A stretch of 9,138 nt of DNA, taken from positions 6,139-15,276 of the forward strand of contig JALWSI010000176.1 of the NCBI GenBank assembly GCA_027080315.1. The letters run 5' to 3'. The notes under the pieces were generated by a model that did not search any database, was not told the origin of the DNA, and saw only the letters and a program-made list of their open reading frames with translations. This document shows positions 2,608-9,138 of the stretch, piece by piece; positions within the stretch are counted from its first letter, which is position 1; each line of letters starts with the position of its first letter. This DNA is from a bacterium (GTDB lineage: Bacteria; Thermosulfidibacterota; Thermosulfidibacteria; Thermosulfidibacterales; JALWSI01). The position numbers and the translations under genes were made by a program.

Positions 2608-4860
2608 CTACAATTGGCCTAAGGCCCTTCTGGGTTTCTTTGGAGGGGTGGGTAAAATGGTGGGGGTGATAAATATCAAAAGCTCCTTTTTCTGAATTTG
2701 TTGAGACTCATGAGTGAAAAGCCAGCCTAACAAAGGTAATCTACTAAGACCAGGAACCCCATTCTTGTTGTTAGCGTCCAACTCTTCATATATACCACCA
2801 ATAACCAACGTATCTCCATTGTGCATACGAACAGAAGTGGTAACCGATCTTTTTTTGATTGGAACACCATCAGGGGTAATCTGCTCAAAATCAGGAGAAT
2901 CTTTGGTGATTTCAACATTCATCAAAATATCTCCACTGGATGTAATGTGTGGTGTAACAGTAAGGCTCATAGTAGCTTCTTCAAAATCTGTCTCCGTCCC
3001 TGATTCCGACACTGTTTTATAAGGTATTTCATATCCTTGCTCTATCTTTGCTTCCTGATTATCCAGAGTTATCACCTTAGGTTGAGAGATTACCCTCCCT
3101 AATCCGTTACTCTCAAGAGCAGACAGACGCATATCTATGCCAAAAGTCTGTTCCTTATTCAAAAGGCTTGCGGCAATAGCCCCTCCTGATCCAATTGTGG
3201 TGGCAGAAGGTAAGTCTATCACATACCCAGGGAAGCTTGGAGCCCATCCTGCAGTCTCGCCCATTTTAGCTGTGGACTGTTTCACAGCATCCCCAGACCT
3301 TACCCCAGCACCTCCAACTCCAAAAGAGTAAGGAAAGTTCATCTCGGTCTTGCTCTGATGCCACAAAAATCCCCACTGAATTCCAAGCTCTTTCGCATAA
3401 TCGGTACTAACATCCACTATTTTGGCAGCGATCTGCACCTGAGGAGTTGGGGTGTCTATCTGATCAATGAAGTCTAACACCGTGTCTATGCGAGAGCGGA
3501 TATCCTTAACCACCAGAGAGTTGGTTCGCTCTATCACATTCACCTCACCCCTATCGCTAAGCAAAGGGGTGATGAGATTAACCACGTCTTTTGCCTCAGA
3601 GTAGTTGAGAGGAATCACCTCGGTGGCCAAAGGCTCAAGCTTCTCAATGGCTCTACCAGCCTCTTCTTGAGCTCTCATCTCGCTCTTTATGTTATCCAAG
3701 GTTGAGATTCTCACGATTCCATTTTCTTCAATCATCCCCAGACCATTCATCTTCAGTATAAGATCCAAGGCCTGGTCCCAAGGCACGTTTTTTAGTTGAA
3801 CGGTAACCTTGCCACTCACATTTGGATCTATCACGAAGTTCATCTTGCTTATCTCTGCCATAAGCTGCATAACTTCCCAAAGGTCCGCATCTTTGAACTT
3901 AAGGGAAACCCTTCTGCCCTTAAAAACCCTCTTCTCTCCAAAAGGATTTGTAGAAGAGGCACCTAACACCACTCTGGGGCCTGATTCTGTGGTGACCTCG
4001 CTGTTCTTAAGGGCAAGCTCTATCTTATCGCCATTTTTGTCTATGCTACACTCCTGCTCTCCCTTTAGATTCAATATGACGCTGGTGGTTTTAGAATGTG
4101 GGTCATAGGTGATCCTTAGCTTTTCAATCTCCCTCTGAGGATTGTAAAGGGTATCCACATTTGACTGATTCTCCGTATTAAAAAGCCTGAGAACATATCG
4201 GGGAGGATCCTCAAGGTAGCTAAGGTGGGTTTTGCCCCAAAAGCTCTTTCCTTTAAGTATAACCTTGTTATCCTTTATTGAAACACTAAGAAGGGAGTTT
4301 AATGCTGACTCATTATTCTCTGCCTCAACGGTCTTTGATTCAGAGTATTTATGAGTGGTCTCACTTGAAGTCTTGCTTGTTACATTAGTTTTTTCTTTCT
4401 TTTTCTCAACAGTCTTTTTAGGCTCTTCCTTCTTTTTCGACGCCTGTTCATTAGATTCCTCATTGGTAGAGTCACCAGATATAGCAAGATAGGGAACCTC
4501 TTTAGGAAGTCTCAAACGAACAAAGGCATCTTTATTTATCAATCCCTCCTTTATCAACTTATCTCTCAAAGACTCTGCCTTATCTTTCGTATCAAACCCA
4601 CCAACTGACAGGGTATATCTATCGCCTTTTTTGCCAATAAAACATATAAGCCTGTGGTGCCTATATAACTGTTCTGCCTGATGATCCAGTTCTGAAATGG
4701 ACTTTTCACTTACAGAAATAACCTGAACAGTGTATATTTTATTGGATGAGTCTGAACCTTTCTTTATTAAGTCAGCCGCGTTATTAGCTGCGAAAGCCCC
4801 TTCGCACAATACCCATAACAGGAGCCCCAACACCATCAACCATCTTGACCTTCTCTTCAT
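2608..4860 (-). CDS. pilQ: Type IV pilus secretin PilQ with N-terminal SPOR and AMIN domains
   Basis: A 750-residue outer-membrane secretin forming the gated ring through which type IV pili (or a DNA-uptake or type II-like machine) pass. Domains: Sec signal peptide 1-24 (basic MKRRSR, hydrophobic core, AFA cleavage site); SPOR-like domain about 41-118 ([26 protein letters not shown]), expected to bind denuded peptidoglycan; Lys/Ser/Thr/Glu-rich linker about 128-183; AMIN domain about 190-286, another envelope-binding module; STN/N0 domain about 315-388 ([20 protein letters not shown]); secretin N1 domain about 412-470; secretin barrel about 570-735 ending in the hallmark [14 protein letters not shown] and [13 protein letters not shown]. 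The ATG at 4860 has AGGAGGA 5 nt upstream. First gene of the operon; no pilM, N, O or P lies directly upstream, because the neighbour is divergent. No lipobox is evident. A type II-like secretin is the alternative, but AMIN domains favour PilQ. Confidence 0.93.
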
Positions 4861-5192: not shown

Positions 5193-5236
5193 GGGTGAAC
5201 GCTTTTAAGTAATTCCATTCCAAAAGGAGGTGCTGC

Positions 5237-6598
5237 ATGTATCCATTATTTGAGGTACCTTTGGTTGGAGGCCCCATCCTTATTGCCCTCATAGCGGTCT
5301 TTCATATCTTACCCTGCCACCTCGCCACCGGAGCCTTCTGGATCACCTACTTCATTGAACGGAAGGCCTACAACGAGAACCGTCCTGACCTGTTAGAGTT
5401 TCTGAAGAAGTACACCCTTTTCATCCTAATCTTCTGCTTCGTCACTGGTTCAATAACCGGTGTTGGTATCTGGTTCGCCTCTTCCGTGACCGCTCCAAGG
5501 GCCATATCGGGATTGATCCACAACTACGTGTGGGGCTGGGCAACAGAATGGGTGTTCTTCATTATTGAGATTGTCACCATATACATCTACTACTACACCT
5601 TTGAGAAGATCTCTCCAAAGGCACACATGCGCATAGGGCTTATCTATGCAATGGCGGCTTGGACAAGCATGGTGATAATCACCGGAATCCTCGCCTTCAT
5701 GATGACCCCAGGGAAATGGCCGGTAACTGGAGGCTTCTTCGACGGTTTCTTCAACCAGACCTACTGGCCCCAGTTGCTAACCAGAACAGCTTTGATGTTC
5801 GTAATTGGTGGCATATTTGGTTTAGTGGTTGCCCCCTTTGTAACCAATAGCTCTGCCAGAGAGACCGTGACTAAAACAGCCGCCAAGTGGGTGGTAGGTG
5901 GAGCCGTATTCACCGCTTTGTTCGCAACCTGGTACTTCTACAGGATCCCCCAGTCTGCAAGGGAGCTCATCATTTCAGGATACCCCTACCTGAAACTCAT
6001 GGGCTTTGTGGCCATTGGATCGTTAGCTCTGGTAACTCTATTCGCCCTTGTATGGGCGCTCCCCAAGCCTCTATCCCTGAATCCCATAGCCTCTATAGTG
6101 ATGGTGATCGTCCTCTTTGCAGGCATAGGTGGCTTTGAAAGCATCAGAGAGATCGTGCGCAGGCCCTACCTGATCCCCGACTACATGTACAGTAACCAGA
6201 TCATAGGCCACGACATGCCCGCTAAGGGAGTGAAGGCTGAGTCTGAACTGATCAACAAAGAAGGTTTCTTGAAGTATGCGAAGTTCGTACCCCAAGGACT
6301 GAGAGAGATCAACGAAAAGAACTTTATGGACGCAGGCAGAATCATCTCTAAGTATCAGTGTATGAGCTGCCATACCTTCTCCCCAGATGGAAGACTCTCT
6401 ATTCAGAAGCTACTCAACAGCGCCGGAATGAGCGCTCCAGAAGACGTGGCCGATCTATTGGATTCACTTGGAGACTACCCGTACATGCCACCCTTTATGG
6501 GAACAGAGGTGGAGAAGAGAGCCACTGCAGCATACCTGGCAAAACTGGCATCTCCAGATGCGGAAGTTGATCCCAAATGGGTAGTGAACGGAGAATGA
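5237..6598 (+). CDS. Cytochrome bd-like (CydA-family) subunit fused to C-terminal cytochrome c
   Basis: A 453-residue inner-membrane protein: about 8 helices (roughly 12-35, 59-81, 98-121, 131-154, 183-202, 218-235, 250-274, 284-303), then a periplasmic class I cytochrome c. By eye the membrane part follows E. coli CydA: His23 matches the haem d ligand H19, Glu111 matches E107, the KAHM segment with His130 matches QHM, Met255 matches the b558 ligand M393, and REIVRRPY (304-311) matches AEYGRQPW with Glu305 at the E445 position. The b558 ligand H186 position holds Arg183. The long quinol loop is absent. The c domain has CMSCH at 375-379 and probable Met axial ligand in YMPPFMG (Met417). An even helix count puts haem c outside the cytoplasm if the N-terminus is periplasmic as in CydA. 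This resembles the described haem-c-containing bd-superfamily enzymes (the 'OR-C' type, as I recall it). Oxygen reduction is inferred, not shown. Confidence 0.88.
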   Translation: MYPLFEVPLVGGPILIALIAVFHILPCHLATGAFWITYFIERKAYNENRPDLLEFLKKYTLFILIFCFVTGSITGVGIWFASSVTAPRAISGLIHNYVWGWATEWVFFIIEIVTIYIYYYTFEKISPKAHMRIGLIYAMAAWTSMVIITGILAFMMTPGKWPVTGGFFDGFFNQTYWPQLLTRTALMFVIGGIFGLVVAPFVTNSSARETVTKTAAKWVVGGAVFTALFATWYFYRIPQSARELIISGYPYLKLMGFVAIGSLALVTLFALVWALPKPLSLNPIASIVMVIVLFAGIGGFESIREIVRRPYLIPDYMYSNQIIGHDMPAKGVKAESELINKEGFLKYAKFVPQGLREINEKNFMDAGRIISKYQCMSCHTFSPDGRLSIQKLLNSAGMSAPEDVADLLDSLGDYPYMPPFMGTEVEKRATAAYLAKLASPDAEVDPKWVVNGE

Positions 6599-6611
6599 AG
6601 GAGGGCTAAAA

Positions 6612-7730
6612 ATGACGAATATGGCAACCATCCTTAACAGTATGAGGGACCCTATGGGGGTGCCCTTCTATCCTTGGATGTTTCAAGCACTGATGGTGCT
6701 CACCTTTGCCCTTCACATAATCTTTGTGAATCTGGTGATTGGTGGAGCATCACTGGCCATGTATGGTCATATCAAGGGCAAGGAAGAACCCAAATGGAAA
6801 AGGCTATCTGCAACCTTGGCAAGGGCTTCAACGGTGAACCTCTCCCTGGCAATAGTGCTGGGAGTAGCACCTTTGCTCTTTGTGCAGGTGATCTATGATC
6901 CGTTCTGGTACTTCTCAAACGTGCTCTCTGGCTGGTGGGCAATGGGCTTTCTGCTCTTCATCTGCATAGCCTTTCTCGCCCTGTATGTTTTCTACCTGAA
7001 AAGGGGAGAGAATATTGAAGGATACGGCTTCTTTGGAGCCATAGCCCTGGTTATGCTGGCCTTAACAGCAATAACAATAAGCGCTCTCTCTGTGCAGTCT
7101 TTACACCCCGAAAAGTGGGACAGCTGGTACCTCATAGGCAAACATATGAACACAGCAGGAACAGCCCTTCATGACTTAAACATAGCTCGTCTCCTACACT
7201 TCATAGTGCCCTCCTTTGCCATAACCGGAATATTCCTCATGCTCTATTCATGGTACTTTGAGCCTCGCAAAGACTTTGACCACGAATATCTAACCTGGGT
7301 GGGCAAAACAGGGGCAAAACTGGCCCTTTACTTCACCCTGCTTCAGATAGTGGTAGGGGTATGGTGGCTTTTGACGATACCCAAAAACCTGGACTTTCTA
7401 ACCAATCCTGCCCTGCTGGGGGGAGCCGCAGTGGGTGTGGTTACCTTGGTGATACTGGTAGGGGCTCAGAAGAACCCGCAAAAGCAGGCTATTCCCGTGG
7501 CCTTTGTAGCGTTCTTGGCTGTGTTGGCTATGTCAATCACAAGGGAAGTTCTGCGCATGGAGTACCTTGGCAAGTTTAACTACAGCATCTACACCTATAA
7601 GCTGAACCTGGACTGGGGAAGCACCTTCCTATTCTTCGCCACCTTCGTCATGGGACTCATTGTGATCTCGTATCCCATAATCATCGCCTTCAAACTGGGT
7701 AGAGGTACCGATGTAACAGGAGGTGAGTGA
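6612..7730 (+). CDS. Second CydA-like membrane subunit of the bd-like complex
   Basis: A 372-residue inner-membrane protein with about 9 helices, lying 13 bp after the haem c subunit with AGGAGG at 6599-6604, 7 nt before the ATG. It is a distant paralogue of its neighbour rather than a recognisable CydB. Both share the helix-1 His (His35, like H19), a TGAK/TAAK helix ending in a Trp-rich stretch and IP (about 233-257 here, 214-238 there), and REVLRMEY (311-318), matching REIVRRPY, with Glu312 and Arg315. It keeps a His at the b558 H186 position (His196 in ARLLHF), which the first subunit lost. It lacks the Glu pair of helix 3 (Cys118 sits at the E107 position) and has no Met at the M393 position. 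No quinol loop and no CxxCH. It probably forms a heterodimer with the first subunit; whether it binds haem is inferred from the conserved residues only. Met4 is an alternative start. Confidence 0.83.
   Translation: MTNMATILNSMRDPMGVPFYPWMFQALMVLTFALHIIFVNLVIGGASLAMYGHIKGKEEPKWKRLSATLARASTVNLSLAIVLGVAPLLFVQVIYDPFWYFSNVLSGWWAMGFLLFICIAFLALYVFYLKRGENIEGYGFFGAIALVMLALTAITISALSVQSLHPEKWDSWYLIGKHMNTAGTALHDLNIARLLHFIVPSFAITGIFLMLYSWYFEPRKDFDHEYLTWVGKTGAKLALYFTLLQIVVGVWWLLTIPKNLDFLTNPALLGGAAVGVVTLVILVGAQKNPQKQAIPVAFVAFLAVLAMSITREVLRMEYLGKFNYSIYTYKLNLDWGSTFLFFATFVMGLIVISYPIIIAFKLGRGTDVTGGE
7718..7724 (+). promoter_or_regulatory. Shine-Dalgarno deciding the small-gene start
   Basis: AGGAGGT lies inside the last codons of the preceding gene, 5 nt before the ATG at 7730. 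Site and spacing equal those of the first gene of the operon, which strongly supports the short ORF as a real gene. Confidence 0.75.
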
Positions 7731-7834
7731 TGGAGAAACTGGGCAAGCTGGCTTTAGGGCTCATGGTGGCATGGGTGGTGATCGTGGGTGGATACGGTAT
7801 GATCCTCACCATAAAGAACGGAATGCTCTTCTAA
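7730..7834 (+). CDS. 34-residue single-helix membrane protein, CydX-like small subunit candidate
   Basis: An ORF of 34 codons plus TAA. It starts MEKLGK, has one hydrophobic helix at about residues 7-28 (LALGLMVAWVVIVGGYGMIL) and ends TIKNGMLF. The ATG shares one base with the TGA of the preceding gene (TGATG) and has a perfect AGGAGGT 5 nt upstream, so translation is well supported despite the length. It is the last gene before a strong terminator, so it belongs to the bd-like operon. Cytochrome bd oxidases carry tiny one-helix subunits (CydX, CydS, CydH/Y) that stabilise haem binding, and position, size and topology fit that role. I see no sequence identity to E. coli CydX beyond the general pattern, so the link rests on context. 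No haem-ligand His is present. Confidence 0.78.
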   Translation: MEKLGKLALGLMVAWVVIVGGYGMILTIKNGMLF

Positions 7835-7851: not shown

Positions 7852-7885
7852 AAAGGAGCTGGCGTTTGCCAGCTCCTTTTTCTTT
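7852..7885 (+). terminator. Rho-independent terminator of the cytochrome bd-like operon
   Basis: A perfect 12-bp inverted repeat: AAAGGAGCTGGC (7852-7863), loop GTTT (7864-7867), GCCAGCTCCTTT (7868-7879), then a T-rich tail TTCTTT (7880-7885). It begins 17 bp after the small gene's stop. The tail runs into the rsmB stop codon from the other side. Read on the minus strand the same stem is followed by only three U, so it may also slow rsmB transcription, but less efficiently. Confidence 0.9.
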
Positions 7886-9138
7886 AAGGGCCCACCTTTC
7901 TCATCCTTGCAATGAAGAAGCCGTCTGCATTTAGAAGATGAGGAGCCACAAAGAGGGTTCCATTATCTATGCGGCCCCGTTCTCTAAAGACCTCAGGCAA
8001 ATAAGGCTCAATATCGTCAAGGACAAACCCAGGGTGTCTCTTCAGAAAGCCTTTGATAACATCATATCCCTCTTCAGGCTCGGTGCTGCAAACGCTGTAA
8101 ACCAGCACACCATCGCTCTTAAGAAGCGGTGAGACAGCCTCAAGGATTGAGCCCTGCAGAAGCGAGTAGGTCTTAAGATCACTGCTCTTTCTACGCCAGC
8201 GGATCTCGGGATGCCTTCTTATTATCCCAAGGTCAGAGCAGGGGGCATCAACCAGAATCCGGTCAAATGAGGCCTTCTCAAGAGAGTCTGCCACCTCCAC
8301 CACATCCCCTCCTATGAACCTCACCATATCTGTTCCCCATCTCTCACAGGTCTCTTTTAGAACCTCAAGCCTCGTCTCATCTCTCTCAACTGCAACAATC
8401 TTACCACGATTATCCATCATGGTGGTGATCTGGGTGGTCTTGATGCCTGGAGCGGCACAGGAATCAAGGATTCTCTCCCCGGGTTTGGGTTCAAGCACCT
8501 TTGAAACAACCCATGAGGACAGATCCTGAGGTATGAACAGCCCATCTCCAAAGAGAGAAAGGGTAGATATATCAACAGGTGTAAGGATAATCAGCATCTC
8601 AGGACTTTCAGGATGAAGCATACACTCAATCCCCGCCTTCCTCAGGCTTTTTCTGAGCTCTTGAGGAGAGGTCTTCAAAAGGTTCACCCGCACCGAGAAA
8701 GGGGCCTTACCACAATTGGCCTTGCACAGTGCCACGGTCTCCTTAGCACCCCACCTCTTCAGCCATCTTCTCACCAACCAGCGAGGATGCGAGTAACCAA
8801 CAAAGATAGCGTCTTCAACGGATTTCATATGCCCCACGTGAGGATAAGGGCTTCTTGAGATCTCTCTCAGTACACCGTTCACTATGGGCTTAAACTTAGA
8901 GGGAGCCACATTCCCTTTGAGCAGTTTAACAGTCTCGTTCACCGCAGCATAAGGGGGAATTCTATCAAGCATCACAAGCTGATACGCACCCATGAGAAAA
9001 AGCACCTTCACAGGCAATGGGGCCTTGTAGTAACCGGAGAAGTGTGACGACACTATCCACTCAAGCCTCGTCTTCCACTGAACCACCCCCAACACAAGCT
9101 GGCGCAGCAGGCCCCTGTTGGGACCATCAACATTGAAC
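7884..9138 (-). CDS. rsmB: 16S rRNA (cytosine-5) methyltransferase RsmB (N-terminus beyond the window)
   Basis: SAM-dependent enzyme that methylates C967 (E. coli numbering) of 16S rRNA at carbon 5. The frame stays open through 9137, and residues before the GTG at 9095 (GLLRQLVLGVVQW) align with the NusB-like domain of E. coli RsmB (LLQELCFGVL). The gene therefore enters from outside, and about 30-45 residues are missing. Numbering from the codon at 9095: NusB-like RNA-binding domain about 1-80 (RIPPYAAVNET, IVNGVLR); linker and RNA-binding part to about 185; Rossmann methyltransferase from about 186, with SAM loop DSCAAPGIKTTQ (211-222) and acidic VERDE (236-240). The two cysteines of this family are present: Cys286 in VDAPCSDLG, for product release, and Cys336 in YSVCSTEPEEG, the nucleophile. 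It is convergent with the cytochrome operon, leaving 49 bp between stop codons that hold the terminator. Confidence 0.94.
   Translation of the reverse strand, partial: FNVDGPNRGLLRQLVLGVVQWKTRLEWIVSSHFSGYYKAPLPVKVLFLMGAYQLVMLDRIPPYAAVNETVKLLKGNVAPSKFKPIVNGVLREISRSPYPHVGHMKSVEDAIFVGYSHPRWLVRRWLKRWGAKETVALCKANCGKAPFSVRVNLLKTSPQELRKSLRKAGIECMLHPESPEMLIILTPVDISTLSLFGDGLFIPQDLSSWVVSKVLEPKPGERILDSCAAPGIKTTQITTMMDNRGKIVAVERDETRLEVLKETCERWGTDMVRFIGGDVVEVADSLEKASFDRILVDAPCSDLGIIRRHPEIRWRRKSSDLKTYSLLQGSILEAVSPLLKSDGVLVYSVCSTEPEEGYDVIKGFLKRHPGFVLDDIEPYLPEVFRERGRIDNGTLFVAPHLLNADGFFIARMRKVGP

Follow-up and report, generated by a model that had tools for sequence, protein, structure and literature searches.

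The question raised by this locus is what a complex of the cytochrome bd type might do when it is built from two CydA-like proteins, one of which carries a cytochrome c domain, and from where it would then take its electrons. The operon lies in a stretch of 9,138 nucleotides, called the window below. An earlier note on this DNA, made from the sequence alone, had proposed a separate complex fed by a periplasmic c-type carrier and had left three functional options side by side, namely an oxygen reductase, a detoxifying enzyme or something else.

The operon and its third gene

The features of the window that matter for the argument are the following:

2608-4860, - strand: secretin, upstream neighbour of the operon
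5222-5231, + strand: Shine-Dalgarno sequence of gene A (aaaggaggtg)
5237-6598, + strand: gene A, 453 aa, CydA-like membrane domain fused to cytochrome c
6359-6373, + strand: CMSCH haem c attachment site of A, with C375, C378 and H379 invariant in the A alignment
6612-7730, + strand: gene B, 372 aa, diverged CydA paralogue with 9 helices
7730-7834, + strand: gene C, 34 aa, single-helix protein, by homology the C-terminal helix of B encoded as a separate gene
7852-7879, + strand: intrinsic-terminator-like hairpin of 12 pairs with a T-rich stretch behind it, which closes the operon
7884-9095, - strand: RsmB-type methyltransferase, downstream neighbour of the operon

A, B and C are all encoded on the + strand and are tightly spaced, with 13 bases between the end of A and the start of B, while the ATG of C at position 7730 overlaps the TGA of B by one base. 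Clear Shine-Dalgarno sequences also precede B (aaggagg) and C (aggaggtg). The layout described in the earlier note, a three-gene operon with tight spacing, strong ribosome sites and one terminator, was recovered in full, at the same place and on the same strand. Both flanking genes are located on the - strand and the operon therefore stands alone in the window. The secretin, which is divergent from the operon, has a SPOR-like domain at its N-terminus, besides an N0 domain and short repeat domains.

A scan for relatives yielded 114 related stretches, 80 of which were kept for the analysis; according to their titles these come from Thermodesulfobacteriota, Nitrospirota, Elusimicrobiota, Acidobacteria, Verrucomicrobia and others. 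At least 70 of 81 loci have B immediately 3' of A, and among the remaining loci some are cut off by contig ends; because the arrangement recurs in 70 loci, chance is excluded as its cause. The distances of A and B are correlated with an r of 0.92. The A-B pair is also present in the cultured Thermosulfurimonas dismutans S95 (L072), a thermophilic anaerobe (PMC5276818).

Some of the homologues have an unusual architecture. A distant A homologue of 856 aa (L087:214-2784, - strand) contains eight CXXCH motifs, its CydA-like and monohaem part being followed by a long multihaem extension, and another A homologue (L079:5995-7506) carries tandem cytochrome c domains, in which two CXXCH motifs occur. 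A distant B homologue (L093:140-1486, - strand) ends in a CXXCH-bearing C-terminal extension of its own, which was seen in no other B.

The third gene had been implied to encode an additional membrane subunit, an idea which has to be abandoned. B has about 30 additional residues in 48 of the related loci, and a profile built from these fused tails was run against a set of 20,202 small reading frames taken from the related loci and the window. It found exactly 12 separate small ORFs, all directly after B; one of them is C of the window (E 2.8e-11), and the best frame beyond these 12 has an E of 1.3. The last helix of B is thus separate in 12 loci and fused in 48, and 14 loci show neither form, several of these being distant members or placed at contig ends. 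Since the profile of fused B tails recovers C together with 11 other separate ORFs, C is to be regarded, on the strength of this homology, as the split-off last membrane helix of B, and its encoding by a third gene is a local variant. The same homology rules out that C is an independent accessory subunit of the CydX/CydS type.

Two CydA-like subunits and one probable active site

Protein A only just exceeds the cut-off of the Pfam profile Cyt_bd_oxida_I (26.3 bits, E 3.4e-6, cut-off 26.2) and stays under the cut-off of the cytochrome c profile (E 2.3e-4). In the A family as a whole, each of the two profiles is matched by 44 of the 45 members, which bears out the earlier reading of A as a CydA-like domain continuing into a cytochrome c with a CMSCH motif. 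The membrane domain comprises eight helices (residues 12-308) and the monohaem cytochrome c domain extends from about residue 361 to 441, its haem c ligands, C375-C378-H379 with M417, being invariant in the 45 sequences. In the AlphaFold2 model (pLDDT 91.7) eight long helices are followed by a small helical domain. The membrane part superposes on every listed solved CydA chain with Z scores of 29-32 over about 310 residues, and the tail superposes on cytochromes c6 with Z scores of 6-7. Profile-to-profile comparison of A with canonical CydA gave an E value of 7.8e-13. In CydA, helix 8 terminates at the periplasmic side; because the cytochrome c domain of A replaces the subsequent helix 9, it would be located in the periplasm. 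The membrane urate oxidase PuuD, which likewise combines a membrane domain with a cytochrome c, was considered as well, and neither A nor B gave a Pfam match to it.

Neither Pfam nor NCBIfam gave a noteworthy match for B. Its model (pLDDT 93.8) superposes best on solved CydA, with Z scores of 24-27.5, and its profile aligns with those of canonical CydA (E 7.9e-9) and of A (E 9.5e-12). Profiles were needed for this purpose, as a direct sequence search of the PDB with A or B as single query found no CydA. A relationship of B to CydB was rejected, because sequence comparison gave nothing and Foldseek places CydA chains above CydB chains. The membrane subunits of alternative complex III and polysulfide reductase were also rejected, their structural matches to the A and B models being weaker than those of CydA (Z about 18 or less). 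The earlier note had named two outcomes that would speak against its assignment, a best hit to an unrelated family and a structure that does not superpose on CydA. What was found is a best hit of A to CydA, a profile of B that aligns with CydA, and models of both proteins that fit CydA far above other families. The proposed replacement of the usual CydA and CydB by two CydA-like subunits likewise holds, as B is CydA-like and the genome of this organism, which is 94% complete, contains no match to CydB (PF02322).

The bd superfamily has been divided into the branches qOR, OR-C and OR-N, with a quinol site in qOR only (PMC13189123). In a tree of 72 sequences, canonical CydA, OR-N-like proteins, A and B form four clades with 100% bootstrap support each, the order of which is unsure owing to long branches; the five rows used for comparison were classed as OR-N by their length, their lack of CXXCH and their match to PF01654. 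A and B are separated from the qOR and OR-N-like rows in this tree, which has no named OR-C reference. Judged by profiles and predicted models, the operon belongs to the cytochrome bd superfamily and B is a diverged CydA paralogue.

In the E. coli bd enzymes, H186 and M393 are the ligands of b558, E445 is the ligand of b595 and H19 that of heme d (PMC8585947), and E99 is located at heme d in E. coli bd enzymes (PMC6853902). Profile alignment with E. coli CydA identifies H19 with H23 of A, E107 with E111, E445 with E305 and R448 with R308. E99 corresponds to E104 in a direct alignment with M. smegmatis CydA (9r2g), whereas the E. coli profile alignment sets S91 at this position owing to a gap. 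All five residues of A (H23, E104, E111, E305 and R308) are invariant among 45 sequences. At the b558 ligand positions, A has T182 in place of H186, beside an invariant R183, and A259 in place of M393 (weak alignment), and the positions of the Q-loop residues K252 and E257 fall into a gap. H28, H95 and H130 of A are almost invariant too; H130 aligns with H126 of E. coli CydA, and H28 and H95 are conceivable ligands of a relay haem.

In B, H35 is the equivalent of H19 and H196 that of H186, the E99/E107 pair is missing, and E312 aligns only weakly with E445 (0.36). The claim that B shares the ligand-bearing motifs of A is therefore correct for H19 but needs to be amended otherwise, since B has the H186 that is missing in A and is devoid of E99/E107. 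As A keeps the equivalents of H19 and E445, while B lacks that of E107 and has only a weak alignment for E445, the two-haem active site is assigned to A, in which, as far as the alignments indicate, the usual b558 and the quinol site are gone. The sequence leaves unexplained by which route electrons from haem c would reach the haem pair when haem b558 is missing. The absence of the Q-loop residues together with the fused haem c makes a c-type donor in place of quinol the natural reading, as the earlier note had suggested. A canonical quinol-oxidising bd oxidase (qOR) is excluded because the Q-loop, the b558 ligands (in A) and the CydB partner are all missing.

Proposed oxygen defence and the competing explanations

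We propose that the product of the operon is an O2 reductase of the OR-C type, heterodimeric and independent of quinol, which most likely serves oxygen defence, and we assign this reading a probability of roughly 0.6. Single electrons from a periplasmic c-type cytochrome would enter at the haem c fused to A and pass on to haems in the membrane; O2 would be reduced to water at the pair of high-spin haems that A would bind through H23 and E305, with E104/E111 for protons. B, as a degenerate CydA paralogue, would occupy the structural place of CydB and would be completed by C as its split-off last helix. In this organism, a probable anaerobe, the complex would serve oxygen defence rather than aerobic respiratory growth. 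What the analysis shows directly is the gene order, the conservation, the fold, the retained ligands, the loss of the Q-loop and of the b558 ligands, the origin of C as a split helix and the genomic context; the haem types, the electron donor, O2 as the substrate and the A-B dimer are all parts that we infer. Points against the proposal are the lack of the E99/E107 pair in B and the electron route without haem b558 mentioned above.

Genome content and neighbourhood are the reasons why, of the three options mentioned at the outset, oxygen defence by O2 reduction is favoured. Apart from lacking CydB, the genome of the organism contains no haem-copper oxidase (COX1) at its completeness of 94% and no member of the CydA family besides those of this operon, and it does contain a flavodiiron homologue. 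COX1 was found over the cut-off in 13 of the 39 other carrier genomes and CydB in 15, while 14 have neither; these 14 include the genomes of L002, L004-L008, L010 and L069. The operon itself is accompanied by varying subsets of oxygen-defence genes in L002, L003, L004, L006, L007 and L069, the set comprising rubrerythrin, desulfoferrodoxin, ferritin, peroxiredoxin, flavodoxin, a Fur-family regulator and a flavodiiron protein. Parts of it are also seen in the more distant L024 and L078. Most instances of this oxygen-stress neighbourhood come from a single group of relatives (L002-L004, L006, L007 and L069), and in the window no such genes adjoin the operon; the neighbourhood is a strong suggestion of the role rather than a statistical result.

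In two of these loci (L002:2302-3000 and L006:4705-5410) the reading frame of the peroxiredoxin beside the operon has an in-frame TGA at the place of the expected peroxidatic cysteine (FTFV*PTEL) and then reads through, so that it probably encodes a selenocysteine peroxiredoxin.

With respect to the electron donor, the genome of the organism encodes cytochrome c assembly proteins and contains 225 CXXCH-coding sites vs 63 in a reversed control (3.6 times), some of them densely clustered. The only match to PF13442 in this genome is the domain fused in A, and candidates for multihaem donors appear there only as CXXCH clusters. One dense run of 12 sites lies at G000:C19:2502-3909 (- strand), and runs of 8 and then 4 sites lie at G000:C95:9965-12636 (+ strand); these look like multihaem cytochromes and are possible electron donors. 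The organism was also considered as a sulfate reducer, and no NIR_SIR (DsrAB-type) domain was found in its genome.

The complex could instead be a true terminal oxidase that conserves energy under microaerobic conditions, passing electrons from a c-type cytochrome to O2, taking up cytoplasmic protons and thereby charging the membrane. The invariant equivalents of E99/E107 in A would fit such a function, some carriers are probably aerobic, as the COX1 counts indicate, and the OR-N relatives have been proposed as terminal oxidases of nitrite oxidisers (PMC10839748). Several carriers from the Nitrospirota and Elusimicrobiota also possess haem-copper oxidases, and there a respiratory role is possible. 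However, the organism of the window lacks COX1 and CydB, as do, judged by the cut-offs, those of its closest relatives whose genomes were checked, the operon stands among oxygen-stress genes in the closest relatives, and the carrier T. dismutans has been described as an anaerobe (PMC5276818), so that we consider this explanation unlikely.

Somewhat less probable still is that the substrate reduced at the haem pair is not O2 but a different small oxidant (NO or peroxide), haem c delivering the electrons. An Rrf2-family regulator is encoded near the operon in several Nitrospirota loci, and this family includes the NO sensor NsrR; in other relatives, peroxiredoxin and rubrerythrin are neighbours. 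Iron-sulfur status is however the more frequent signal of Rrf2 regulators, the active-site ligands are those of the O2-reducing bd enzymes, and canonical bd enzymes resist NO and are, to our knowledge, not known as NO reductases. That quinol is still oxidised, at a site outside the Q-loop and with haem c as an additional carrier, we regard as very improbable. The archaeal CydAA', also a pair of CydA paralogues, reportedly uses quinol, but A has lost both b558 ligands along with the Q-loop residues. The published classification also reserves quinol sites for qOR (PMC13189123).

Returning to oxygen defence by O2 reduction, we tentatively suggest, with rather less confidence than in the function itself, that a group of anaerobes has as its sole recognisable membrane O2 reductase a quinol-independent, cytochrome c-fed enzyme dedicated to oxygen defence, which would act alongside flavodiiron protein, rubrerythrin and superoxide reductase. 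If cytochrome c-driven O2 reduction were demonstrated, the bd superfamily would include cytochrome c oxidases. Such a demonstration would also bear on the electron route to a haem pair without haem b558, and on the removal of O2 at the membrane by anaerobes that lack any standard oxidase. At least one cultured carrier, T. dismutans S95, makes the enzyme testable.

Relation to known bd enzymes

An OR-C branch of the bd superfamily with features matching this operon was reportedly described by Murali et al. in 2021, and a haem c on a CydA homologue is what we take to be its hallmark. A resembles OR-C in being a CydA homologue with haem c and without a quinol site, and in the tree it forms a clade apart from qOR and OR-N-like proteins. 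Judged by its features, the operon is thus likely a member of OR-C. In the literature searched, no characterised member of a haem c-bearing bd branch free of the quinol site was found. The sister branch OR-N is called uncharacterised as well; it is thought to use cytochrome c, experimental confirmation being lacking (PMC10839748).

With the canonical CydAB of E. coli (bd-I) the operon shares the CydA fold and, in A, the equivalents of H19, E99/E107 and E445/R448. It differs in having no CydB, in the absence of the Q-loop and the b558 ligands from A, in the cytochrome c that replaces helix 9 and in a second subunit that is itself CydA-like. The use of two CydA paralogues instead of CydA and CydB is also known from the OR-N CydAA' of Nitrospira and Nitrospina and from the archaeal CydAA', the latter reportedly a quinol-using pair according to Murali et al. 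in 2021. The OR-N-like proteins sampled here are about 600 aa long and lack CXXCH, and A and B are placed in clades apart from them. C resembles CydX/CydS in being short, in having one helix and in being encoded last in the operon, but it differs in its homology to the C-terminal helix with which B ends in other loci. The kind of enzyme is therefore one that is already known, and what the present analysis usefully adds to it is the case, drawn from genomic data, that its role is oxygen defence.
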